IMG/VR virus record: IMGVR_UViG_3300050017_000023
Span: 1 to 43,826 of that record
Source of the DNA: a virus
Strand: one strand, 5' to 3'
Length of the DNA: 43,826 nt
The position numbers and the translations under genes are program-made. Positions 6,914 to 26,600 of the stretch are shown here, piece by piece. The notes under the pieces were generated by a model. It was not told the DNA's origin, searched no databases, and was given only the letters and a program-made list of their open reading frames with translations. Positions within the stretch are counted from its first letter, which is position 1; each line of letters begins with the position of its first letter.

Positions 6914-7393
6914 GTGGCGAGCACTCCCACGCCCGCGCCCTCGATCCCAGTGGTTCCAATTCGAACCGCGATGTTTCAGGGGCAGCCGCTTCAGCCGCTC
7001 TCCGCGGTGTGGGTGGCTTTCTACGAGGACTTGATCCCTTCGGCGGCCACTTCGCAAGCCTACGGCCGCACGCTCGATCTCAACAATTGCACGGTGGGTA
7101 ACAATATCGCGCCGTGCCTCACCGCGCAGGCCTCCGGTACGGCCTTCGAAGTATCTGGCGTGCTGCGTAAAGCCATCACGGCGAATCTGGTGGTGCGAAT
7201 CAACGTCAATCAGAATCCCTTCATTACCTGCACCGTCAACGCGGTGGCGAAGCCTTTCACCGCCCTGACGTGGACGTCGTTCTCGACGGACGGCACGCTG
7301 GCGAAGGGCGACATTTTCAGCTTCGACGTGCTGGCCTCGGACGGCTCGATCGATCCCAATGGCATCGCGAGTTTCACGGTCCAATGGCGCTGA
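6914..7393 (+). CDS. Virion-associated protein of unknown function
   Basis: The protein has 159 residues from a GTG start one base after the previous stop. A short Pro-rich leader is followed by an all-beta type sequence: repeated V-x-V strands, an NNCTVGNNIAPC loop with two cysteines, and a C-terminal domain with FDVLASDGSIDPNG. The last 10 bases overlap the next gene. In P22 this position is taken by the tail needle gp26, but this protein has no needle-like coiled coil. I do not recognise the family; a tail-tip or fibre-attachment role is only a positional guess. Confidence 0.6.
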   Translation: MASTPTPAPSIPVVPIRTAMFQGQPLQPLSAVWVAFYEDLIPSAATSQAYGRTLDLNNCTVGNNIAPCLTAQASGTAFEVSGVLRKAITANLVVRINVNQNPFITCTVNAVAKPFTALTWTSFSTDGTLAKGDIFSFDVLASDGSIDPNGIASFTVQWR

Positions 7394-8379
7394 TTACTCC
7401 ACTGGCTTTGTCGCCGGATAACCCGCTGCCGGCGTGGGCGCTCAGTGGCGGCCCGCTGGTGTTTCAGCAGCTCGACGGATCGAGCGGCGCGGTACTGAGT
7501 GCGGCCCTGATCGCGGCGCTCCTGGCGGCCGGCTGGGTCGAGACGGCCACGCTATCGACCGGCGCAACCTTGCAGGCTACCAGCCCGCAGAGCCTCACCG
7601 TTCTACTCGACGTGACCTGGCTCACTTATGCGGGCACCGATTACGTGGGCGTGCAGCTCCACGGGACGGCGACCGGCTACCAGCATTACGTGGGATGCGC
7701 GGCGGCCCGCACGTTCCAGATTGTCGCTGGGCCGTGCCAAGGATTTCTCAGCCAGCCTGGCGTGGCGGGCCCGGCGAGCTATGGCAGCAATATCGCCTTC
7801 GGCATTCCGTATCTCGCACCCACCGATCCGGTTTATCCGGATGGCGCGCTGCCCGATGAATGCTGGTGGAGCAACGGAGACAAATGGCCTTCGGGGACGT
7901 CCAACTCGTTCCGCAACAACCTGGGCTACGTGGACGACAATCAGCCGGCCTGGTGCGCATACTTCCACCGGCCCGGCGAATCGACCACGCACTCGCTCGC
8001 GCTGCAGCACGGCGCGGTGGCGCTGATGTGCGTCGAGATGAGCTTCGGCGCGGGCGTTCCCACGCAGATGATCTATCCGCAACTTGAACCCTTCGCCCTG
8101 GAACCATTATTGGCGTGGGGCGATTGGTGCGCGGCCGGCTACGTATATCCGGCCGGCTTCGTTGGATTTCCGCCCAAGGTGCGCGGCCAACTTTACGATG
8201 CCATGATCCTCAGCGGCCCGCAGATCGGCAATGCCACGCCGGGCGGATCGGAACAACTGGTGCAACTCTACGGCGACAAAAGCATGTGGCTGAATTTCAG
8301 TTTTGGCTTGCCTCTGGCGAATCTCATGTTGCTCCTTCCCGGCGGCGAAAGCTCGGCAGTAGGGAACGTGGCTTACTAG
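7384..8379 (+). CDS. Tail/structural protein, paralogue of the 9653 gene
   Basis: The protein has 331 residues. The ATG at 7384 is preferred over an upstream in-frame ATG at 7270, which would overlap the preceding gene by more than 100 bases. It is rich in Gly, Ala, Trp and Pro and is probably all-beta. The N-terminal LIAALLAAGWVETATL matches LLEAAGWTQGPF of the 9653 product. A GQLYDAMILSGP element near residue 269 matches GQLYDAFVACAQ there, with an identical 18-base DNA stretch underneath. Both probably build the tail or fibre. There is no recognisable enzymatic motif. Confidence 0.65.
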   Translation: MALITPLALSPDNPLPAWALSGGPLVFQQLDGSSGAVLSAALIAALLAAGWVETATLSTGATLQATSPQSLTVLLDVTWLTYAGTDYVGVQLHGTATGYQHYVGCAAARTFQIVAGPCQGFLSQPGVAGPASYGSNIAFGIPYLAPTDPVYPDGALPDECWWSNGDKWPSGTSNSFRNNLGYVDDNQPAWCAYFHRPGESTTHSLALQHGAVALMCVEMSFGAGVPTQMIYPQLEPFALEPLLAWGDWCAAGYVYPAGFVGFPPKVRGQLYDAMILSGPQIGNATPGGSEQLVQLYGDKSMWLNFSFGLPLANLMLLLPGGESSAVGNVAY

Positions 8380-8392
8380 CTCAAAAATCAGA

Positions 8393-9628
8393 ATGAATGT
8401 GGATCTACATCCCAGCATCAACGTGCTCTCCCTCTGTTCCGGCTACGGCGGAATCGATCTCGGATTGCGACTCGCTCTCCCAGCTACTAGAACCATTTGT
8501 TACCTGGAAAGGGAGGCAACTGTCGCGCAAATCCTGGCTGCGCGTTTTGAAGACGGCGCCCTCGACGAAGCGCCTATTTGGTCGGACGTTAAAACCTTCG
8601 ACGGCAAGCCGTGGCGCGGCCTCGTGGATATCCTCTGTGGCGGCTACCCGTGCCAGCCTTTCAGTTGCGCGGGCAAGCAGCTCGCCGAAAAAGACCCGCG
8701 CCACCTCTGGCCGCACATCGCCCGCATCGTGCGCGAAGTCGAGCCCGAATGGGTCTTTCTCGAAAACGTCGATGCACATCTTCGACTCGGCTTCCATGAA
8801 GTCGCCGACGAATTGGAAGCGATGGATTACCGAGTTGCGTGCGGACTCTTTAGCGCGCAGGAAGTCGGCGCACCGCATCGGCGGCTCAGGCTATTCGCGT
8901 TGGCCCACCGCAATGGCGCAGGATTGCGAAGCGGCGGGATCGAAAAGCAAGGGTTATCTGACAAGCGCCGCGCAGATGTGGCCCACCTCGAGGCAGGAAG
9001 ACGCGGAGAGTTGCGGCAACCATCCAGGAGCGACGGACTCCTTAACGGGAGCATTGGCGCAATGGAAGACGCCCCACGGCATGTCGGGTCACGACAAGTC
9101 GGGCAAGGTAGCGGGCGGGGGCGGGGAATTCGCCAAGCAGGCACTCAGTTGGCAGACGCCGGCGACGGACTCATTCCGCTCTCGCGGCGGAGACCGGGTG
9201 GACGAACCGGGATTGGACCAGCAAGCGCGGCAGTGGCCGACGCCCAAGGCTTTGACCGGCGGAGCCAATTCGCAGCGGCTGAAACGGCGACGGAACGGCA
9301 AAGGCGGCCCGGGAGGCACGGACCTTCAGGAATCCGCGGAACAATGGCCGACACCTCAGAGCCGCGACTTCCGCTCGACCGTAACGGGCGATATAGCGAA
9401 GCAGAACAGCCGTCCGCTCTCGGAAGCGGTTGGGCATTTCCCCCAGGACCAAACGACCTACCAGGGTGGCAAGAGTTGCTTGCCGTATGCCCGCAGGTTG
9501 AACCCGCTATTTGTCGAGGCTTTGATGGGATTACCCCTCGGGTGGACCGATTGCGGGCACTCGGCAATGGCGTCGTTCCGCTCGTGGTTGCGCACGCATA
9601 CCGCACTCTTAGACGCGCTTTCGACTAA
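8393..9628 (+). CDS. C5-cytosine DNA methyltransferase (Dcm-type)
   Basis: The frame has 411 residues. Motif I is LSLCSGYGGIDLGL (about 12-25). Motif IV is GGYPCQPFSCAGKQ with the catalytic Cys of PCQ (about residue 86). Motif VI is FLENVDAHL (about 122-130). Motif VIII-like is VGAPHRRLRLF (about 160-170), and motif X is RLRALGNGVVP (about 388-398). It would methylate cytosine C5 in a short target, probably to protect phage DNA from host restriction. It is odd in lying between two related structural genes, and in that from about 8890 on third-position G/C preference moves to the +1 frame, which carries a different known C-terminus (next entry). Residues 172-340 in this frame are Arg/Gly/Gln-rich and look less like a folded domain. 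The catalytic half is certain; the true C-terminus is not. Confidence 0.85.
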   Translation: MNVDLHPSINVLSLCSGYGGIDLGLRLALPATRTICYLEREATVAQILAARFEDGALDEAPIWSDVKTFDGKPWRGLVDILCGGYPCQPFSCAGKQLAEKDPRHLWPHIARIVREVEPEWVFLENVDAHLRLGFHEVADELEAMDYRVACGLFSAQEVGAPHRRLRLFALAHRNGAGLRSGGIEKQGLSDKRRADVAHLEAGRRGELRQPSRSDGLLNGSIGAMEDAPRHVGSRQVGQGSGRGRGIRQAGTQLADAGDGLIPLSRRRPGGRTGIGPASAAVADAQGFDRRSQFAAAETATERQRRPGRHGPSGIRGTMADTSEPRLPLDRNGRYSEAEQPSALGSGWAFPPGPNDLPGWQELLAVCPQVEPAICRGFDGITPRVDRLRALGNGVVPLVVAHAYRTLRRAFD

Positions 9629-9656
9629 CGCGCAAGACGTACCGATAGCCGCATGA
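8913..9656 (+). CDS. Overlapping +1-frame alternative C-terminus of the methyltransferase (WPTP-repeat type)
   Basis: This frame lies wholly over the second half of the methyltransferase gene. It is open from about 8892 and the first ATG is at 8913 (247 residues). It shows repeated W-[PQK]-T-P motifs (QMWPTS, QWKTP, SWQTP, QWPTP twice). It ends with LNPLFVEALMGLPLGWTDC and FRSWLRTH, a C-terminus known from many phage Dcm-family proteins. Third codon positions are clearly more G/C-rich here than in the other frame. The stop TGA (9654-9656) overlaps the ATG (9653) of the next gene, as expected if ribosomes terminate here. Either a +1 frameshift near 8890 makes a fused product, or an old frameshift left two usable tails, or this is a separate internal gene. 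No ribosome-binding site is obvious. Confidence 0.5.
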   Translation: MAQDCEAAGSKSKGYLTSAAQMWPTSRQEDAESCGNHPGATDSLTGALAQWKTPHGMSGHDKSGKVAGGGGEFAKQALSWQTPATDSFRSRGGDRVDEPGLDQQARQWPTPKALTGGANSQRLKRRRNGKGGPGGTDLQESAEQWPTPQSRDFRSTVTGDIAKQNSRPLSEAVGHFPQDQTTYQGGKSCLPYARRLNPLFVEALMGLPLGWTDCGHSAMASFRSWLRTHTALLDALSTNAQDVPIAA

Positions 9657-10999
9657 TGCCCCTCGTCCGCTATAGCAACCGCATTGTAACCAGCCCCGAA
9701 CCCTTCGGCATGGATGTAGGACTCACCACCGTGGCGGCCGTCAACGCGATCGCCGGCAGCGGCGGCTTGCTGGAGGCGGCTGGCTGGACGCAAGGACCGT
9801 TTCCAGGCGGTAGCTATGCGACCGCGCATTTCAATTTCCCCTTCGGCGTTCCAGGTCTGAGCTTCGGCATTCCGGATTTCGAGGTCGATGCCGTCTGGTA
9901 TCGGTACGTCGCGGGCGGCACGCCTGGCCATCCGACGCTGAGCGGCGGCGTGGTCACCGTTCCGCTGGGCAGCGACTCCGACGACGCCACCGCGGCCGCG
10001 CTGGTGGCGGCAGCAGTCACACTGTTCTCGCAGTGGACCGCCACAGCCAATATGACCGGCGCGGCGTCGTTCACGCTCGATCTCAAAGCGAAGACCACCG
10101 GCACAGGCCCCAACGATTCGATATTCGGGTACAACGCCGAAAATTGCGTGCTCACGAGCGCACCTTCGGGCGGCTCTTGCACCTGGTTGTCGCAGACAAA
10201 CCCAGCCGGCTCGCAGATCCAAATCAGTCTGATCGCCGGGCCGAGTGAGTTCGGACTGACGAACTGCTCCATCCTGCTGACCTTTCCGGCGCCGCTGGGC
10301 GGCGCGCAGCCCGCTTACACCTGGGTGCTGGCGGCCCGCGGCGCCTGGAATTTCTGGGCCGATCCGTACTCGCTCTGCTTTTGGATGATGCCGGGATCGA
10401 GCGGAGAGTCCGGCGACCCGTATCCGGCGCACACGTTCTTTTTTGCCGGCGTCCCGCGCAACACGCAGGTGACTTATGGCGCGCTACCTTACGGCGGCAT
10501 TTCGCAGGCCTTTGCGCACTGGGATCCAAACCAGACGCTGATCGCGAACTACACCCCCGGCGTCGACGAGCTGAACGGAGTTTTCACCACCGGCGTTCCG
10601 AACTGCGCGATCGCGGCGCCGTCGATCGCCAGCTACGAGCTGGACGGCAAGGGAGCGGTCGATCCCATCGTCTCCGGACACGTCGGCTTGCCGATCCTGC
10701 TGCCGGCGCGGCTGGGACTTCCATTTCCCGGTGGCTATGGCGGCGCCATCACCACTTACGTGGTCGGCCAACTTTACGATGCATTCGTCGCATGCGCGCA
10801 GTATCCGCTGGGTACGGTGATCCCGTATGACGGCCACCAGTGGATTGCGATGCTTTCGCAACCCGGCGCGACCTTGTTCCTCTGCAGCGCGACGGCGGCC
10901 GGCGGTCCTTACGCGGTGGTGCCCTGGACAAGTGAGATCGGCGCGGGCGGCGATCCAGGCGGGGGCGGCGCGGCGGTGGTTGGGAATTTCGCTCTATAA
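9653..10999 (+). CDS. Tail/structural protein, paralogue of the 7384 gene
   Basis: The protein has 448 residues starting at ATG 9653, overlapping the +1-frame stop of the methyltransferase region. It is a Gly/Ala/Pro/Tyr-rich beta protein with an AGGTPGHPTLSGGVVTVPLGSD block and a long cysteine-containing middle. The GQLYDAF element near residue 373 matches its 331-residue paralogue. The C-terminus is glycine-rich. The two paralogues flank the methyltransferase, as if a methyltransferase cassette had entered a tail-protein pair. The likely role is fibre or tail spike; no receptor-binding or hydrolase motif is visible. Confidence 0.65.
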   Translation: MMPLVRYSNRIVTSPEPFGMDVGLTTVAAVNAIAGSGGLLEAAGWTQGPFPGGSYATAHFNFPFGVPGLSFGIPDFEVDAVWYRYVAGGTPGHPTLSGGVVTVPLGSDSDDATAAALVAAAVTLFSQWTATANMTGAASFTLDLKAKTTGTGPNDSIFGYNAENCVLTSAPSGGSCTWLSQTNPAGSQIQISLIAGPSEFGLTNCSILLTFPAPLGGAQPAYTWVLAARGAWNFWADPYSLCFWMMPGSSGESGDPYPAHTFFFAGVPRNTQVTYGALPYGGISQAFAHWDPNQTLIANYTPGVDELNGVFTTGVPNCAIAAPSIASYELDGKGAVDPIVSGHVGLPILLPARLGLPFPGGYGGAITTYVVGQLYDAFVACAQYPLGTVIPYDGHQWIAMLSQPGATLFLCSATAAGGPYAVVPWTSEIGAGGDPGGGGAAVVGNFAL

Positions 11000-14602: not shown

Positions 14603-17600
14603 ATGGCCGACAATCTGACCCCGCAAGACGCTCTGAGCGATCCGCAGTTTTACCAACTGCCGCATGAGACGCGCGTCGCCGTGCTCCAGCAGCTCGATCC
14701 GGACTTCGGCAAACTGCCGAGCGAGGAGCAGGGTAAGGTCATCGCGTGGGGTTACTCTCAACTTCCCTCGTCTCAGGCCACCCTGCGGCCCAGCCAGAAC
14801 GTGCCTCGCCCCGGCGAGAGCTATGGACAGACTGGCTCATCGGTCCACGCCGGCAACGTGCCTTTGTTGACCGAAGACGAACCGCAGCCCACCACGGCCC
14901 CCGGCATCCTGCCCCCGGCCGCTGGAATGCCGCGCGCCGGCGCAGCGCAGCCCGCACTGCCCACCGAACTGCAAGCCAATCCCGCCCCCGTGATGGCCCG
15001 CCACGGCCGCGGCCAGGTGGAGGCTCCGGTCCCGCAGCCAAACCCGTACAACCCGCTCGACTCGCCCGCGACCGGCGTGCAGCAGATGGTCACTGGCGTG
15101 GAGCAAAGCGCGGAACCCATCGGAGCAGCCGCGCACGATGCCATGCGGCAGAGCTACCAAGATCCGGTAGCACTCACACCGGAATTGACGCGCCAGGGCG
15201 CGGGCGCGGCCTACAAGATCGGATCGGGCGCGCTGCAGGCCGCCGCTCCTCTCATGATTCCCGCCGGCATCGCGGCCCAGCCGCTCAAGGCCGCGGCAAC
15301 CCTCGGTATCAGCATCGCCGGAACGGAAGCCACCAGCCATGGGCTGAAAGCGGCGGGCGTCCCGGACGAGTACGCCGACCTCGCCTCCCTGGTGTTCGGC
15401 GTTTGGGGAGCGGGCGAATTCAGCAAGATCGTCGGCGGCGAGTTTCCGCCCGAGATCACACCCGAAGCGAAGGCCCTGGCGCAACAGACCGGCGGCATTG
15501 CCTCGCCCGACGTCACCCCCGCGCAGGCGGCGACCATGGCGGAACACATGCGCGGCGCAGGGCATCCCCTGGCGGCGAACGCCTGGGACAAGCTCAACAC
15601 CTCGAAACCGCTGCCGCTGATCGTCGACGGCCAGCCCGCGCTGCTGCACCCGCCCGAGTCCGCGCCGACGTCCACCAGCATCCAGAACCCCGACACGCCA
15701 TGGAACAGCCCCACGCCCGTCGTCACGGGCCGCATGCCCGCTGTGCGCGTCACCGATCTCGCCGGTAACACCATCCACCTCGATACCGTGAGCGGCATCG
15801 ATGGCTGGCTACGGCAGAAAGGCGTCATCGGCGATATTCCGCCGCAGCGCCCCGCCATCTTCGGCACGCCCTCGCAGGGCCTTTCACCCGAAGCGGAGGA
15901 AGGTATCGCTGCTCTCGGCCAGGAGCAGCAGTACATCCAAACCGCCGCCGGCCGGGTCAAGCTCCCAGACTGGTGGCAGCAGGCCATCCAAGACAACATC
16001 GCGGAAGTCCGCGCCGCCCAGGCGCAGCACGCCGTCAACCCCACGGCCCCCGCCGCGCCGCGCCCCATCGACACCTCGGGAGTCGCCGGCACGCCCGAAA
16101 ACGCGCCACAGGTCACACCAGCAGCCCCGCCAGCGAATCCGCAGGAAGCGCCTGGACCTACCGCACCCCCCGAAACCGTTCCCCCTGTTCCCACTCCACG
16201 GCCGCACGTCGCCGCGGCGAACCCCGCCGCCGGCTATCCGACCGGCGACACCGGCACGGTGAAGACCGCCGCCGGCACGCGCGCCGATTACCAGTGGGCA
16301 TGGCTCCCGCGCACGCAGGTTTTGGGCTCGCACGACGCGCAGGGCAACCCCAACCCGGATTTCCCGCAAGCCATTCAGCCGCGCGATCGCTCGCGCGATG
16401 CGCTCCAGGCCCAGGTCCAGCACATCGCCGCATCGCTCGACAACGAACAGACCGGACCCGACCCCATGGCGGATCGCGGCGCGATGCTGGTCGCGCCCAT
16501 GTCCTCTCTGGGCCAGCCCAACGATCCGCGCTTCGCCACCGTATCGGGCAACGGCCGCAAGGCCGCTTTCGATCAGCTCGCCTCGACCGGCCATCCGAAT
16601 TGGGACGGCTACCAGCAGTATTGGGCGGATCACGCCGAGGACGTGGGCGTCGATCCCAACCAGGTGCTTTCCAATCCGGACGGCATCATGACCCGCGTGC
16701 TGGTCCCGCATAAAAACCTCGACCTCGCGCGCTTCGCCGCCGAAGCCAACCAGGACGACAAAGCGGCCATGTCTCCCGTCGAACAGGCGAAAGCCGACGC
16801 CGCACGGCTCGCGCCGATTATGCCGCTGTTCCAGGCTGCGGAGAATGGCGAGATCATCCACCCCGGCAACCGCGATTTCATTCGCGCCTTCATGCAGGGC
16901 CTTCCCACAGGCGAGCAGGCCGGCTTGCAGACCCGCGACGGCCAGCTCTCCCAGGCTGGCGTCACGCGCATCCGCAATGCCGTGTTCGCGCACGCTTACG
17001 GCGCCGACACCGCCGCGCTCGAAAAGCTGGCCGAGTCTCCCGACTCCAATATCAGGAATATCACGAGCGGTATGTTGCAGGCCGCGCCCGCGTTCGCCTC
17101 GATGCGCCACGGCGTCGCGAGCGGCACGCTGTATCCCGGCACCGACCTCGCGCCCGACGTGTCGGCCGCCGCGGCGAAGCTCTCCGCGCTGCGCGAGAGC
17201 GGACAGACGATACCCGACTACCTGAAGCAGCAGGGATTGTACGGGCCGGAACTCACGCCCGAAGCTAAGATGCTGTTGCAGGCGTTCCACGCGCACCGCG
17301 CGAGCGCCAAGCGCATCGGCGCCATTCTGAAGAACTACGCGGCGGCCGTCGAAGCCGCCGGCGATCCGAAACAGCAAGGCATGTTCGGCGTGCAAAGCGC
17401 GCCGACGAAAGGTGAATTACTTGAAGCCGCCATCCATCTCGCAGCCAAAGAACCCATCGCTCCCGTCGTCGAGCCAGGAACACAACTACTTCCCGTCGAA
17501 CCGGCCGGCAATGGTGCGCCGTCTGATTCACCTGGTGCGCCTGAAGCAAGCGGCCAGCAGCCTGCCGGCGATGGCATCGCCGCGCCCACAGGGACTCCCG

Positions 17601-20600
17601 AGCCTGCCGAAGCTGCCGGGAGTGTAAGCCACGCCCTGCCGCACGCCCTCGCCGGCGCCAAGCCGCGCTATAGCTATGGCCCCAAACAGTTCGATCTGAC
17701 GTTCGCCGACGATCTCGATAAGGCCGCATACATCTCAGCGCAGCCCAAGCGTTCCAAGCATGACGCCGATTACGTGAAGTGGGCGCGCGAACAGTCGGGC
17801 GCGTCCGAACAGGCCGTGCGGGATGCCGGCGCGCACGTGCGCGATCACATCAAGGCAATGGCACGCAGCGCGGAGCCTGGCGTGTTGCACGTGCCGGCGA
17901 TCGCGCGGGAAAAATTGAAGGCGCCAGCCCCCAGCCCCGAACCCCCAGCCCCCGCACCCGTCATTCCGCCGAAAGCGCCGACCAAGGGCGACATACCGCC
18001 GCAAGTGCGCACGCGCGTGAAGTGGGCCGTCGATACACTGAACGGCATCGCCGAAAAGCTGAAGCACGCCCGCGAGGCGGATCGCCAGTTTGGCAATGAA
18101 GGCCGGTACGAGTGGGAGACGTGGGAGAGCATCAACGACCGCGACAAACACATCGCCCAGGCGAAAGAGACGCTGGCGCTGTTCCGCGAGATGGCCACCG
18201 GCAAAGGCATCGACCCCGAGGCCCTCATTAACGATCTGGGCGGCATCGGCGATTACGAACCGTCCGCTAAAGGCCGCGAGTGGGGCGGGCAGAAATCCTC
18301 AGCCCCCAGCCCCGAACCCCCAGACGCACCCCAGGCGGTCACCGCCGACGAGTACGTCGCGTCACTCACGGGCGATTCGAAGAACTTTGCCCAGCAATGG
18401 CTTGACCATCGAAGAGGAAAAGGGCCAGCGCCCGACGCCAGCAAATTCACATTCACCGAATCCGATGGAGACGCCATCGTCATTCGTGCGCGCATCAACG
18501 CCCGCGTGGACCAGGAAGAACAATCGCCCGTGGCCGCGCCAGCCGCCAAACAGCCATTGAAAGCCGGCTTTATGGTCGAAGGCCAGCCGTTCGCCATCGG
18601 TAAACTTCATTACGTCATTGCGGTGGTCAACCATCAGGGCAAGTTACTCGGCCAAGCGCATATGTTTTCGAGCGGCGCGCGCAGCGACCAGGTGGCAGGA
18701 CGCAACGGCGACGGCACATGGCACAAATCGGGCGCCTGGATAGGTCAGCAGTGGGCCGACGCGCACGGCGCGCAGCTCGAAGAGGAATACCAGAAGATCG
18801 CCGCGCACGTGGAACCCGCGGCCGCCACTATCCCGCCCAAAGCGCCGACGAAAATGGGCACCCCCGAACAGCGCCAGCAGGTTTATCAAATGGCCGCCGA
18901 CGCCCTGTTTACCTGGGCGAACGATGTGCAGCGCCAGCTTGCGCAAGTGGATTGGAAACCGCAGGCCGACGACACGGCGGTAGCGCAGCTCCGCAAAGTC
19001 ATTGCCCGCGCCGAAGAGATCGAAAAGACCGTCGCCGCTCCCGAAAATTCGCCTGCCGCCGACGCCCTGCACGCGCGCCTCCAGTTTGCGCGCGGACAAT
19101 TATCCGACTTGGAAAAGCGGATGGCCGCCGCGGAACCCGTTGCCAGCGAGCCCGACCTCACCGACAAAGAGAAAGCCTTTATCGACGCCGCCTACGAGCG
19201 CCTGCGCGGCGAAGGCTTCAAAGACAATCCCGACCTGCAGCGCTTCGCCACCGAAATCTTCGGCGGCGATCGCCACGCCGGCAAGTGGAACATCAAGCAG
19301 GTTTACGATCTGCTGGAGGCGGCCGTAGCCAAGTACATCGACAGCCACCGCCAGGGCTTCACGCCCAAAGCGGCCCTCGCCGAAGTCCGCGCGCTGATGG
19401 CGAAACTGCCGCGCCAGGTGGACCGTACCGCGGGACAAGAAGCCTTCCAACAATTCTCCACGCCGCCGACGATCTCGCTCCTCGCGGCCGTGGCCGCGCA
19501 CTTCGGGAAATCCGATATCGCGCTCGAACCTTCCGCCGGCACCGCCATGCTCGCCGTGTGGGCGAAGGCCGCCGGCGTCGCGCACATCGAAACCAACGAA
19601 ATCGATCCGCACCGCCGCGCCATCCTGCGCTATCTGGGATTCACTCCCACCGCGCACGATGCCGAGCAGCTTCACAACCTCACCGAAACGCGCCCCACCG
19701 TAGTCGTCATGAATCCGCCTTTTTCGGCGGCCGGCAATCGCGGCATCACCAAAGATCAGACCGTGGCGCAACGCCACGTCGAACAGGCGCTACACATGCT
19801 CGTCGACGGCGGGCGCCTGGTGGCGATCCTCCCGGGCGGACGCACCGGAATGCCGACCGAAGGCGCGGCGCTCGATGGCGGCTGGAGCAACTGGTGGGAG
19901 AAGATCGCGGCCACTTACAACGTGCGCGCCAACGTCTTGCTCCCCGGCAAAGAGTACTCGAAATACGGCACCACTTACCCGACGCGCCTCGTGGCGATCG
20001 ATAAGACCGGCGCGACACCGGGCGGGAAAAGCGCGATACTGAGCACAGATGCCGCCGACCTCGACGCCGCCCTCGAAATCGCCGCCCAGATTGGAAGCGA
20101 CCGCCCAAACCTTGCTCAACCAGGTGTGGGACCTGTTCAGCCTCGCGCTGGAGAAGTCTCCGGATCTGGAACAGATGTTGCCGACGTTTCAAATCCCGAC
20201 GACCAAGGCAGTCCACGACAGCCTGGACCAGTGGGATCCGATCGCGTTCCTGGCGAAGTGGAAGCGGGTAAACCCGAGCCTGCCGCCGCGGAGGGTAGCG
20301 GAGATCGCGGACCAGGACGACCCGAGCCTGCCGGATCTGCGGACAGTGGCGCAAGCGGCGATGCAAGTCCTCTCGCCGGAAACGGATTAGCGGGCGCGCT
20401 GGGCGTTTCGCCCGAAGACCTCATCGACCAGATTGCGGAAGCGCTCGGCGCTCCTGCTGCTGCTGCCGAACCGAGTTCTAAACCCACTCCCGCGGCAGCA
20501 CCGGCGCCCAAAAAACGCATTCCGCCGAAGGCACGCACCAAAGGACAGAAGGCCCCCGCACCGGCCCCGGCCCCGGTACCGGCGCCGCCCGTCAATCCGC

Positions 20601-23600
20601 TGAAGGCTGCCGCCGAGGCTGCCGCCAAACGGCTCCGCGACAAATACCTGAACGGCGCGCAGCTCAACATCGGCCTCGACCCCGCCGACGCGAAAGACGT
20701 CATGGTCATGGGCGCATCGCTCATTCTCGACGGCGCGCACAAGTTTAAGGATTGGTCCACGCGCATGGTGGAATCCTTCGGCCCGCTGCTGAAGGCTATG
20801 GCCGCGCAGATCGGCCAGAGCGTACAGAATCTCCTGCGCGACATTCACCAGCTCGCCGCCGCGGCGGCCAAGCGTTTCGGCGTGGAAGCCGAGGCGACGC
20901 CCGCCGCGGAGCCCGAAGCGAAACAGCATCCCGCCGTCAAGCTGGGCCTGAATCCCCTAGCGCATCAACAGCAGGACGTGGGCGGCGGTACGTTCACGCA
21001 TTACGTTCCGGCGAAGCTCATCGGCGGCGCACCCCACCCAGCCCCCATCGTCCAATCCGCGCCGCTCGCCGCCGTGGATCCGCCCGATATCACTTACCTG
21101 CCGAAGTTCGATCCCGCGCTCATGACCGATGGCCGCATATCGAACGTGCAGCTCGAAACCATCGCCTATGCAGGCCAGCGCCATGCGCGCAAACTCGCGG
21201 ACGGCACGCGCGCAGGTCTGTTTATCGGGGATGGCACCGGAGTTGGCAAGGGCCGCGAGATCGCCGGCATCATCCTCGACAATTGGGCGCAAGGCCGCAA
21301 GCGTTCGATCTGGGTATCCGCCTCGCAAGACCTGATCGAAGACGCGCAGCGCGATCTGACCGACCTCGGCGCGGCGATCCCCATTCGCGTGGTGAATGAC
21401 TGGAAAGCCTCGGCTCCGATCGATCTCGACGCCGGCATCGTGTTTCTCACTTATAACTCGCTGATCGGTGAGTCCGACGATCCGAGCGACCAGAATGCCG
21501 CGCCCAAAACGCGCCTCGACCAATTGACGAAGTGGCTGGGCGACGATGGCGTAATCGTCTTCGACGAAGGCCACCGCATGAAAGGGGCGTTCGACGACGG
21601 CGCCGGCGAACCCACCAAGACCGGACAAGCCGGCATCGATCTGCAGGACCATCTGCCGAATGCGCGGGTAGTCTACGCCTCGGCCACCGGCGCAACCGAA
21701 GTCCGCAACATGGCTTACATGACCCGCCTGGGCCTGTGGGGCGACGGCACGCCATTCCCGCAGTTCGGCAACTTCCTCGCCAGGATCGACCAGGGCGGCG
21801 TGGGCGCCATGGAGGCCGTCTCGCGCGATCTCAAGGCGCACGGCGCTTATATGGCTCGCACGCTTTCGTACGAGGGCGTCCAATACGACGAAGTACATCA
21901 TCACCTTTCCGACGCGCAAAAGCACGTCTATGACACCGCCGCGAACGCATGGCTCAAAGTCATCGCGAAAATTCAGGATGCCATCGTCTCGACGCACGCA
22001 CCAGGCCGCGCCCGCGCCCGCGCGCTCTCGCAATTCTGGGCGACACACCAATTATTTTTCAAGCGGCTCATTACCGCGCTGAAGGTTCCTACCGCCATTA
22101 CCGAAATTCAGAAGGCGCTCGACAACCATCAGAGCGTCGTGGTTTCCGTGGCCACCACCGGCGAAGCGCAGCAAAAACGCATGCTGCAACAGGCGCGCGA
22201 GAATGGCTCCTCGCTCGACGATCTGGATTGGTCTCCGCGCGAAGTGCTCGACCATCTCATCGCCCAAGTGTTTCCGATCCATGCCAACGAAGAGTATGTG
22301 GATCCGAAGACCGGCCAGAAGAAATGGCGGCCGGTCAAAGACGCGGACGGAAACCCCGTGATCGACCGCGTGGCGCTCGCCCAGCGCGAGGCCTTGCGCG
22401 ACTCCCTCACCGACGTGGCGCTCCCCGGCAACCCCATCGACTTGCTGCTCGAAAAGTTCGGTCCCGAGAACGTGGCGGAACTGACCGGCCGCAAGGAACG
22501 TATCCAGGCCAACGCCCAGACCGGCAAGAAGGAAGTCGCCAAAAGGAAATCCGAAGGCGTAGCGGCGAAGAAAAACAACCTCGCGGAAATGGCGGCATTC
22601 CAGGCGGGCAAGAAACACATCGCTATCATCAGCGACGCGGCATCGACGGGCATCAGCTTGCACGCCGACCGGCGCGCGGGCAATCAGCAACAGCGCGTAC
22701 ACATCGCCCTCGAATTGAAATGGAGCGCGGATAAGCAGCTCCAGGACTTCGGCCGCACCCACCGCTCGAACGAAATGAGCGCGCCTAAATACGTGCTGCT
22801 CTCGACCGACCTGGGTGGCGACAAGCGCTTTTCAGCGACCATCGCCCGCCGTCTCGCTTCGCTGGGCGCACTGACGCAAGGCTCGCGCGATGCGTCGGCC
22901 GGCGGCGAGATCGCCAAGTACAATTTCGAATCGACTTACGGCCAGCAGGCCGTGACGACTTTGCTCGCCGAACTGGCGCGGCAGCAATCCAGCCCGCGCG
23001 AGATGCAGGTGTGGGCCATCAAGCAAAACGCGTTTAAGAATTTCGGCGGCGAAGGCGCCCTCACTGCGCGCTACACCGGCGAACGCATGCGCGAGATTCT
23101 GGGCCTCCGTCCCGATCAAAATCTTAACGGCATCGGGAGTCCCGAGGGCCGCGGCATCATCCGCCAGCTCACCCGCCGCGATGTGACCATCGGCGACGAA
23201 TCGGCCGCGGGAACTTACCAATTCACCGACGAAGTACGGGACGCCACCGCACCCGCCCAGGACGGCCGCGAGCTGCTCGCCAAGATCGGCCTGATGCGGC
23301 GCAACGATCTGACGCGCTTGCCCGAGGGCAATCCTATCCCTGCCGGCGTGCCGCAATTCCTCAATCGCGTGCTTTCGCTCCCCGTGGCCGAACAGAATAA
23401 CCTCTTCGAACGCTTCGTGAACCTGTTCGCCAACGCCATCGAGACGGCCAAACGGCAAGGTTCGTTCGATGAAGGCGTCGAGGACCTCAAGAACGCCGAA
23501 GCTATCCGCGTAGTGCATTCCGACCTGGCGCACCAAGCCGACGATGGCGCACAGACCTGGCACTACCACCTGGAGATCGACGAGAAGACCGAACCGCTCT

Positions 23601-26600
23601 CCTGGGCCGACGCCAACCAGCGGCGCAGTCTCCGCGATAGCGTGGATCCGATCCGCAGCGGTCGGCCGTCCGGGTTCTACAAACAGAACCGCAGCGGCAA
23701 CATCGTGCTCGCCGTCAATGGCGGCACATCCACCAACCTGGACAGCGGCGCGACCTCGCGCAATTATGCCCTGTCGCGTCCCAACGGCGCGGTGGAGCGC
23801 ATGGCTACCGCCGAGTTCGACGAGAAGTACTCGCCCGTCTCGGAAGAAGAAGCGCGGCGCTGGTGGAACGAGAAATATCAGGGTGTGCCCAAGATCCGCA
23901 CGCGCGAGCTGCATTTGATCGGCGGCGCGATGCTGCAATTCTGGGATCACCTGGAACATGCCGGCGCGCACGGTATGCACGTCATCCGCGCGCAGGCCGA
24001 CGACGGCCAGCGAGTTGTCGGCGTCGAGATTCCCAACCGCGCCGTGGCGGAAGTGCTGAAGGCTTTGGGCGTCGGACGCGAAGCCACCGACCCCGCGGAT
24101 GTATTCGCCGCGCTGGGGCAAGGCGCGGAAATCCAACTGGCGGGCGGCCTGAAGCTGCGCGCCACCAAAGTCCACCGCGAGGATGCCTATGAGATCGCGG
24201 ACGCCAAGCTCGCCGACTTCTCCACCATCGAAGCGGCCGGCGCGATCGCCGAACGCATCGACGGCAAGAAGCGCTTTTTCATTCCGACCGAACAGGCAGC
24301 AGGCCTGCCCGTGCTGAAGGCAATTCTCGACCGCTGGCCCGTGATGCGCGCGAATACCGGCGATCAATTGCACTCACGCCGCCGGGGAGAGCGTGGGCCG
24401 ATTTTTGAACAGTTTCGTCACGACGAAAAGGGCGCCACGGCTGCCTTGGTAAAAGCTCAGAATGGCGAGGCCATCGGAGCACTTGAGGATAAGAAGTTTG
24501 GGTACGGCGACGTGGATCTAGTCTGGGGATACAAAGGCATCGCCCCTCCAGAGTGGAAACAAGGCTACGGCCTGGCGCATATCCTGGCAAAACATCCGTG
24601 GCTCAAAAACCATTTACAGGAGATGTTCGACCGAATGACGCGCGCGGCGGCCCATGGACCCGAGCGAGTCGATCTATCGAATGAGCGAGGTGAACACGCA
24701 GTACTCGCCTTGACTTGGTTTGGGCGGGAAAAGAAAACATGGCTTCTCACGGAATACGATAAGCCGCCAGCTTCCGAACGAATCCTTGACGGTTCCGGTA
24801 ATCCCGTTTCCGGGACCAGCAGGCCGACTTCCCCACTGACTGGCGGCTCCGATACTAGTGTGACGCCACCGAAGGCCCCAGTCAAGAGTGACGGCACGCT
24901 CGACGCACGGCGCGGTACTTCCCCTGGTTCCCTGGCTCCCAACGCGCCCCGCGCCGTCTACAAGCGCGGCGTCGTCTTCGCTAACCCCGCCGCCGTCGCG
25001 CTGATTCACCGCGCCGAAAAAACTCATGACGAATGGGACGCCACTCTATTGAGTGCCCCCAGCGCGTTCGCGCTGCGCGGCGCGCTGATGCGGATGTCGA
25101 TGGGCAACACGCCCGACAAAGACGCGCTGCGCTCGCTTGCCGAGATGCTGGCCGAGGCGCAGAAAGAAAACGCCGAGGTGCTCCTCACCGAAGTGAAGCC
25201 CGGCGAATCCTTCGCCTCGCTGAAATCGAAGATCCGCCACGAACGCATGCACCGCGCACAACACGCGCTGGCCGCCAGCGGCAGCGTGCGCGATCACGTC
25301 GATTGGGACACCCTGCTCAATCATCCGCTGGCCGGACGCGCCGCGAAGCGATTGATGAACGACGGCTATCCCGCCGACGATCCGATCCTGGCAGCGGAGA
25401 TCGGCGCGCACCTGGCGAGCGGACCCATAGGCTGGAAACGCATGGGACTCTCGGACGCCGATGCCTTCGCACTCTACCGCGCTTACGTGAATCTGTTGAA
25501 CGCCACGCACGTCAAGGACGTGAACGCGCACCTGGCGCATGTGGACCCGCGTTTAGCGACAATCAGGTATGGACAAGAAACCGCCGCACAACCCGACGCG
25601 CGATCTCATGCGGGCAGCGAAAGTGAATCCGAAGGCCTTCGAGGAGGAGTTTCGGAAGCAATTCCCGACAGCGGACCTCAGCAAGACCTGTTCGGATCCG
25701 CCGACAGCAACGCCGCAGCCGAAGCCGCCGGCAGAGCAAAACTCACCGCCGACCAGCTAACCGCCGAATTTAACTCGCCCACGCGCGGCAAGACCAAACG
25801 CGCTCCCAAGCCCGTCCAGACGTCCATCTTCGACGAGACGCCCGAAGACGATCAGCCATCGCTGTTCTCCCGGCGCCGCCAGTATCTCGATACGACCCAA
25901 GACCCCGCCACCACGCGCAGCGGCCGCGTCAAAGCGCAAGTGCTCGAACCGCTCGCCGACGTGGCGCATTTCGTCCACGAGACGCGCGACGATTTCCGGC
26001 GCGTCTTCAATCCCGCCGCGCTGCCACAGGCCGACCGCGCCGCGCTCAATCTGCGCTATCAGGCGGCCACGCAGGCCCGCGACTACGCGCGCGTCGAGCG
26101 CGCCCTGTCGAAAGCCCGCGCCTACTTCGCCGGCCAGCCATGGGATGACAACCTCGCTTTCATCAACCGCATCGAAGCCAACGAACCGCAACCGAACGAG
26201 CAGCTCCAACAGATCGCCGACGTCATGCGCGAGGCTCTCGACCGCTACCGCGATGCCGTGCAGGGCCTCGGCACGGGTAAGTTGTCTACGTTCTATGAGA
26301 CTTACTTCCCGCATCTGTGGCAGAGGCCGGCGCAGGCCGTCGACGCCTTCAAAATGATTTTTGCCCGCCGTCCGATCGAGGGCACCAAGAGTTTCCTGAA
26401 GCAACGTAAATTTCAGAGCTTCCAGGAAGGCGTCGATGCCGGCCTGAAACCAGTGTCGGAGAATCCCGTCGATCTGGTGCTGGCGAAGACCATGGAGATG
26501 GGCCGGTACTTGCTCGCGCATCGCTGGCTGGCGGAACAGAAGCGCATCGGCGAAGCGCGCTACGTGCCCGCCCGCATGCTCAAGCGCGCGCCGCGCGGCT

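Follow-up and report, generated by a model that had tools for sequence, protein, structure and literature searches.

The window, a virus record of 43,826 bases, carries at 8393-9656 two open reading frames (ORFs) that overlap almost completely. Computation demonstrated dual coding of this DNA, together with selection acting on both frames, the distribution of motifs between them and the existence of in-frame and split relatives. We consider it probable (about 0.8) that the locus specifies a heterodimeric C5-cytosine DNA methyltransferase, the two subunits of which occupy different frames of one DNA stretch. The alpha subunit (frame 0) would provide the SAM-binding and catalytic core with motifs I-VIII, a disordered linker and then motif X. 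The beta subunit (+1 frame) would contribute motif IX as well as the DNA-recognition region, the latter consisting of arrayed WPTP modules. The start codons of the two subunits would be separated by a few bases only and probably share a single ribosome-binding site, with beta being translated from 8397. Beta is expected to bind alpha, and the resulting active complex would methylate the DNA of the phage at targets determined by the beta array, in which single modules may have a recognition role. Methylation probably serves to evade host restriction; this would give the enzyme an anti-restriction purpose.

Table 1. Features of the two-frame methyltransferase locus (positions in the window)
Feature	Position	Strand	Basis
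Alpha subunit ORF (frame 0), C5-cytosine DNA methyltransferase, motifs I-VIII and X, 411 aa	8393..9628	+	PF00145, AF2, Foldseek
Alpha motifs I-VIII: I = VLSLCSG 8423, PCQPFS 8648, ENV 8759, VIII = GAPHRR ending 8884	8423..8884	+	Motif positions
Alpha C-terminal segment FPPGP...RLRALGNGVVP, motif X at 9548-9580	9437..9616	+	AF2, motif positions; conserved in A1 and A3
Beta subunit ORF (+1 frame), 419 aa, begins MWIYIP	8397..9656	+	Stop depletion, substitution test, phrog_1008 (1.8e-18)
Beta N-terminal extension, overlapping alpha motifs I-VIII	8397..8900	+	+1 stops 32 vs 274 expected; dNN/dNS 0.60 and 0.54
Predicted target-recognition region of beta: six arrayed WPTP-type modules with linker	8901..9497	+	Motif positions; single-chain actinobacterial relatives
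Beta motif IX-like segment LNPLFVEALMGLPLGWTD	9498..9551	+	Motif position; directly before motif X, in one frame, in relatives
Overlapping start codons ATGAATGTG: alpha ATG 8393, beta ATG 8397, alpha GTG 8399	8393..8401	+	Sequence; same layout in relatives
ATGA: beta stop TGA 9654-9656 overlapping ATG of next ORF (9653-10999)	9653..9656	+	Sequence

The methyltransferase locus is located downstream of virion genes: ORF 5179-6912 matches head closure Hc3 (phrog_578, 2.5e-58). For the flanking ORFs 7270-8379 and 9653-10999, no PHROG family was matched, and the two have in common only a short GQLYDA-type stretch (E 0.13). A very long ORF on the plus strand (14603-29038, 4811 aa) matches several PHROG families of unknown function. 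Within it, aa 1612-1749 weakly resemble a DNA methyltransferase (phrog_6263).

Both frames are under purifying selection

Stop codons were counted in 121 related loci, mostly IMG/VR phage contigs, and compared with a null model in which synonymous codons were shuffled within each gene, keeping frame 0 and its codon usage. Across these loci, the +1 frame contains 162 stops, and 623 are expected. No depletion was found in the +2 frame of the same loci (1685 vs. 1722 expected) or in the longest other ORF of each locus, which served as neighbouring-gene control (0.96 and 0.95). At the window locus, one +1 stop was observed vs. 5.5 expected, a number as low as this being reached in 0 of 200 shuffles, and the +2 frame has 15 stops vs. 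13.7 expected. The single +1 stop is the TGA immediately before the beta ATG. In the N-terminal half, 98 of the 121 loci are free of +1 stops; here, the figures in Table 1 are the unbiased count, which replaced a count on beta-selected loci that was biased by construction. In the reverse test, the beta codons of the recognition region were shuffled, and 69 stops were found in frame 0 vs. about 560 expected, with 126 of 131 loci being stop-free. All 69 fall in only five loci (L029, L030, L058, L078 and L080), where their number is neutral-like (69 vs. 60.6). Since frame-0 stops are absent in 126 loci and +1 stops are depleted, both frames are kept open in most loci.

In addition, substitutions were sorted according to what they change in each of the two frames, using 45 non-redundant sequences per clade from two clades (clade 1, L139-L218; clade 2, L219-L298). 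These selection tests cover the family of the window locus rather than the locus itself, to which only the near-identical contigs L001 and L002 are close. In the recognition region of clade 1, dNN/dNS of the +1 frame is 0.09 (interval 0.06-0.13), and amino-acid identity amounts to 0.929 in +1, 0.741 in frame 0 and 0.727 in +2. Frame 0 is near-neutral there (dNN/dSN 0.65, 0.41-1.05). This means, the recognition domain is really coded in the +1 frame. Over motifs I-VIII of the same clade, the strongly conserved frame is frame 0 (identity 0.931), yet constraint on +1 persists (0.60, 0.37-0.87); for the short C-terminal region, the interval of the +1 frame contains the value 1. In clade 2, the +1 frame is constrained in all three regions (0.54, 0.54 and 0.37, every interval below 1), with 0.54 (0.46-0.65) in the recognition region. 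When +2 was taken as the alternate frame, all dNN/dNS values exceeded 1, with 4.7 and 1.2 in the recognition region. Consequently, both frames are under purifying selection, and alpha and beta constitute an overlapping gene pair. The original prediction had regarded both C-termini as selected over the same 700 bases, and no neutral drift of either frame across all relatives was found. Its dual coding stands; the confinement of +1 coding to the second half of the gene does not, as this frame is open and constrained from the very start.

Proposed division of the enzyme between alpha and beta

Alpha contains the catalytic core with PCQ, ENV and the SAM-binding motif I, which identifies it as a C5 methyltransferase. 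Its match to PF00145 (4.2e-33) comprises aa 10-192 and only profile positions 2-181 of 324. Both this first half (with motifs I, IV, VI and VIII) and RLRALGNGVVP had been assigned to frame 0 from the outset, and correctly so. A recognition domain and motif IX are missing from the alpha chain; the array and a IX-like segment are found in the +1 frame. The AF2 model of alpha shows a confident core and a motif X segment with a disordered region (180-345) in between, and Foldseek aligned alpha to M.HhaI over the large domain only.

In beta, W[PQK]T[APS] occurs at 8901, 8979, 9063, 9150, 9234 and 9345, defining modules of about 30 aa. The repeats and the LNPLFVEALMGLPLGWTD ending were found in the +1 frame as foreseen. 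The identity of beta can be deduced from relatives in which the parts are joined. Single-chain proteins with motifs I-VIII, several LLPTP modules, IX and X are encoded by a Tsukamurella plasmid (WP_074850583) and by the phages MelBins of Gordonia (gp5) and Akhila of Mycobacterium (gp60). The same protein is split between two tandem genes in Gordonia phage Float294 (gp62/61) and Arthrobacter phage KBurrousTX (gp79/80). BLASTP ties the arrays of these actinobacterial relatives to those of overlapping betas (L301 vs. L032, 6e-11; L302 vs. L040, 7e-8; L137 vs. L092, 2e-8). Because the same array, IX and X lie in frame with motifs I-VIII in these relatives, comparison at the sequence level identifies beta as the putative recognition domain plus a putative motif IX. 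The motif IX-like LNPLFVEALMGLPLGW in beta precedes X in the in-frame relatives, whose joint IX and X profile gives a weak match (E 0.03). Its DNA in the +1 frame adjoins the motif X DNA in frame 0 with a 4-nt overlap. Contrary to the original suggestion, the C-termini do not represent alternative endings that belong to different variants of an enzyme: one frame carries X, the other the array and the IX-like segment, and single-chain relatives contain both.

Profile searches with the in-frame IX and X region yielded as top match the motif IX-X region of the plant C5 methyltransferase DRM2, which is weak (E 0.03). A profile built solely from beta tails found no methyltransferase, and profiles of full betas or beta tails found no solved C5 methyltransferases. 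The AF2 model of beta alone is poor, and Foldseek detected no fold match for it; a recognition domain that is split from its core may be modelled poorly on its own. All 130 betas match phrog_1008, a PHROGs family named DNA methyltransferase. Beta is already known as a sequence family, but, as far as found, it is not on record as an overlapping partner. Annotation usually shows one of the two proteins only. On the Sphingomonas paeninsulae plasmid NZ_CP032828.1 (L132, 712795-713886), for instance, RefSeq annotates solely the beta frame as 'hypothetical protein' (WP_239025738), and the overlapping methyltransferase frame is missing.

Mode of expression and alternative readings

In the relatives, a conserved M(x)W[LI][YHLI][IVL]P opens the +1 ORF. 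In most loci, this start lies upstream of motif I, in others it is located atop motif I (NGLALCAG / MAWLYVPG). Because its position relative to motif I varies, conservation of the beta start is not simply explained by frame 0. The NTG start of alpha accounts in part for the tryptophan at position 2 or 3, but not for the residues that follow. In the 121 loci with a conserved beta start, an alpha start codon is always found within -30 to +40 nt of it, most often as a GTG at +2 (ATGTGG, 82 loci) and in 21 loci as an ATG at -4. At the window locus, ATGAATGTGG contains the alpha ATG, the beta ATG and the alpha GTG. A Shine-Dalgarno-like sequence was detected under a loose rule in 70 of the 121 loci; the window locus lacks a clear one. 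In three-piece relatives (L029, L030, L057, L058 and L078), motif X is encoded by a separate ORF with its own ATG; in L030 and L078, a clear Shine-Dalgarno sequence precedes this ATG.

Programmed +1 ribosomal frameshifting near 8890, as originally proposed, would join alpha motifs I-VIII to the beta array and IX and thereby produce a second enzyme form. Along the DNA, frame 0 holds I-VIII, +1 the array and IX, and frame 0 again X, an order that a +1 and a subsequent -1 shift would indeed make canonical. Such a mechanism is nevertheless quite unlikely. A simple consensus search combined with inspection of the junction revealed no common slippery site, and a conserved shift site with a stop context was not found there: in split relatives, alpha ends with TGA, TAA or TAG in unrelated contexts. 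A single shift would yield a product without motif X, and alpha is kept open through the array. Independent initiation of separate subunits is favoured over frameshifting by these sequence comparisons, because constraint on beta extends upstream of the junction to a conserved start of its own, no common slippery site was seen, three-piece relatives have a separate start even for motif X, tandem two-gene variants occur and the start codons nearly coincide. Alternatively, beta could be a separate overprinted protein with a function of its own, e.g. in anti-restriction or regulation, and not a methyltransferase subunit. The 165 N-terminal aa of beta have no counterpart in single-chain relatives, and the missing fold match would fit this idea, too. 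We regard it as unlikely, as the module array and IX belong to the methyltransferase in both single-chain and tandem relatives. Furthermore, alpha has no recognition domain of its own, the corresponding region being disordered in the model and near-neutral in clade 1.

An extremely improbable explanation is that the +1 frame merely represents a codon-usage shadow of frame 0 or that the split results from an assembly or sequencing indel. Conserved frame-0 motifs limit the +1 residues to some extent, and a few contigs (L016, L034 and L035) do contain an indel. However, shuffles that preserve frame 0 yield four times more +1 stops than observed, the +2 frame and neighbouring genes show no depletion, and across the array of clade 1 the +1 frame is better conserved than frame 0. 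Chance and a codon-usage shadow are ruled out by the synonymous shuffles together with these two controls. A sequencing error near 8890, which the original prediction had named as a possible refutation, is excluded because over 100 independent contigs, as well as deposited phage isolate genomes and plasmids, show this arrangement, too. Synechococcus phage Yong-M2-251 is an example of an isolate with such a layout.

Known systems, modules and distribution

The two-subunit reading can be compared with naturally two-polypeptide C5 methyltransferases. The coding sequence for beta of M.EcoHK31I lies within its alpha gene in a different frame, and M.EaeI has a similar organization. M.EcoHK31I (YGGCCR) is the closest known system. 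Like the large subunit of this enzyme, alpha comprises motifs I-VIII and X and lacks IX. The large subunit of M.EcoHK31I additionally holds the predicted recognition domain, and only IX is located on the small one (PMC3404938). By contrast, the predicted recognition domain of the phage family lies in beta together with the IX-like segment; the respective alpha region is disordered, and +1 is constrained there in clade 1. Furthermore, the phage beta covers the alpha gene over its full length, begins next to the start of alpha and contains an array of modules that recur in distant phages; the arrangement is also widely distributed. M.AquI (CYCGRG) similarly uses two polypeptides for one C5 enzyme that is split between motifs VIII and IX. 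However, M.AquI is divided within the variable region and has both IX and X on its small subunit (PMC3404938), whereas motif X of the window locus is in frame 0. The joint arrangement of IX and X fits instead Float294, KBurrousTX and L080, which shows an AquI-like split with both motifs in +1. The single-chain LPTP-module enzymes of actinobacteria and actinophages (MelBins gp5, Akhila gp60, WP_074850583) share core, array, IX and X, but have all of them in one frame. Multispecific single-chain C5 methyltransferases with several tandem recognition units between VIII and IX are encoded by the Bacillus phages SPbeta and phi3T. Here, the likeness to the two-frame family is one of arrangement. A different type of nested gene is the ShiLan-type element, a hidden HNH endonuclease out of frame inside a phage DNA methylase gene (PMC11855218); it is a homing insertion in the third frame and not an enzyme subunit. 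HNH-endonuclease-like frames in or next to the methyltransferase gene of L026 and L112, in the third frame near the C-terminal end, recall this element (PMC11855218). In the literature searched, no description of this phage methyltransferase family was found.

Modules were delimited by a simple pattern, which gave 642 modules in 140 loci with 1-9 per locus and a median length of 35 aa. As single-linkage clustering placed 440 of the 642 in one group, sharing is reported by pairwise identity only. In 59 locus pairs, the catalytic domains are less than 50% identical and nevertheless a module is shared at >=65% identity, at different array positions in 38 of these pairs. Module 4 of the window locus, WQTPATDSFRSRGGDRVDEPGLDQQAR, is 81% identical to its counterpart in L044; the alphas are 47% identical. 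This sharing between distant loci fits an exchange of modules. Tentatively, and with somewhat less than even odds, a widespread phage family can be envisaged in which one gene with two near-coincident starts and two frames yields both subunits. The +1 frame would consist of shuffled recognition modules of about 35 aa with one target each. Module swaps would re-target methylation, and the other frame would stay open and only link motif X to the core.

If the two-subunit reading is true, double-stranded DNA phages possess a long overlapping gene pair with a readable reason: the two subunits of one enzyme. The family is common enough for measurement, with clear selection signals in two clades. 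It would make accessible the maintenance of dual coding, the feeding of two frames by one ribosome-binding site and module exchange inside a dual-coded stretch. Annotation can be corrected, since databases list just one of the two frames, under the name 'DNA methyltransferase' or 'hypothetical protein'. The modules may also serve as recognition parts for methylation tools.

In a tree of the catalytic domains, most overlapping loci are set apart from the single-chain and tandem actinobacterial forms, next to which L041 is placed; three-piece forms are found at several positions. The tree is unrooted, so that no direction is claimed, and L130 was entered twice under two labels. The indel in L016, L034 and L035 lies inside the array and shifts both frames together, reflecting either sequencing error or decay. 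In the Mycobacterium phages ByChance and Polka14 (L303 and L305), frame changes interrupt the single-chain gene, which is annotated as two CDS in each phage.
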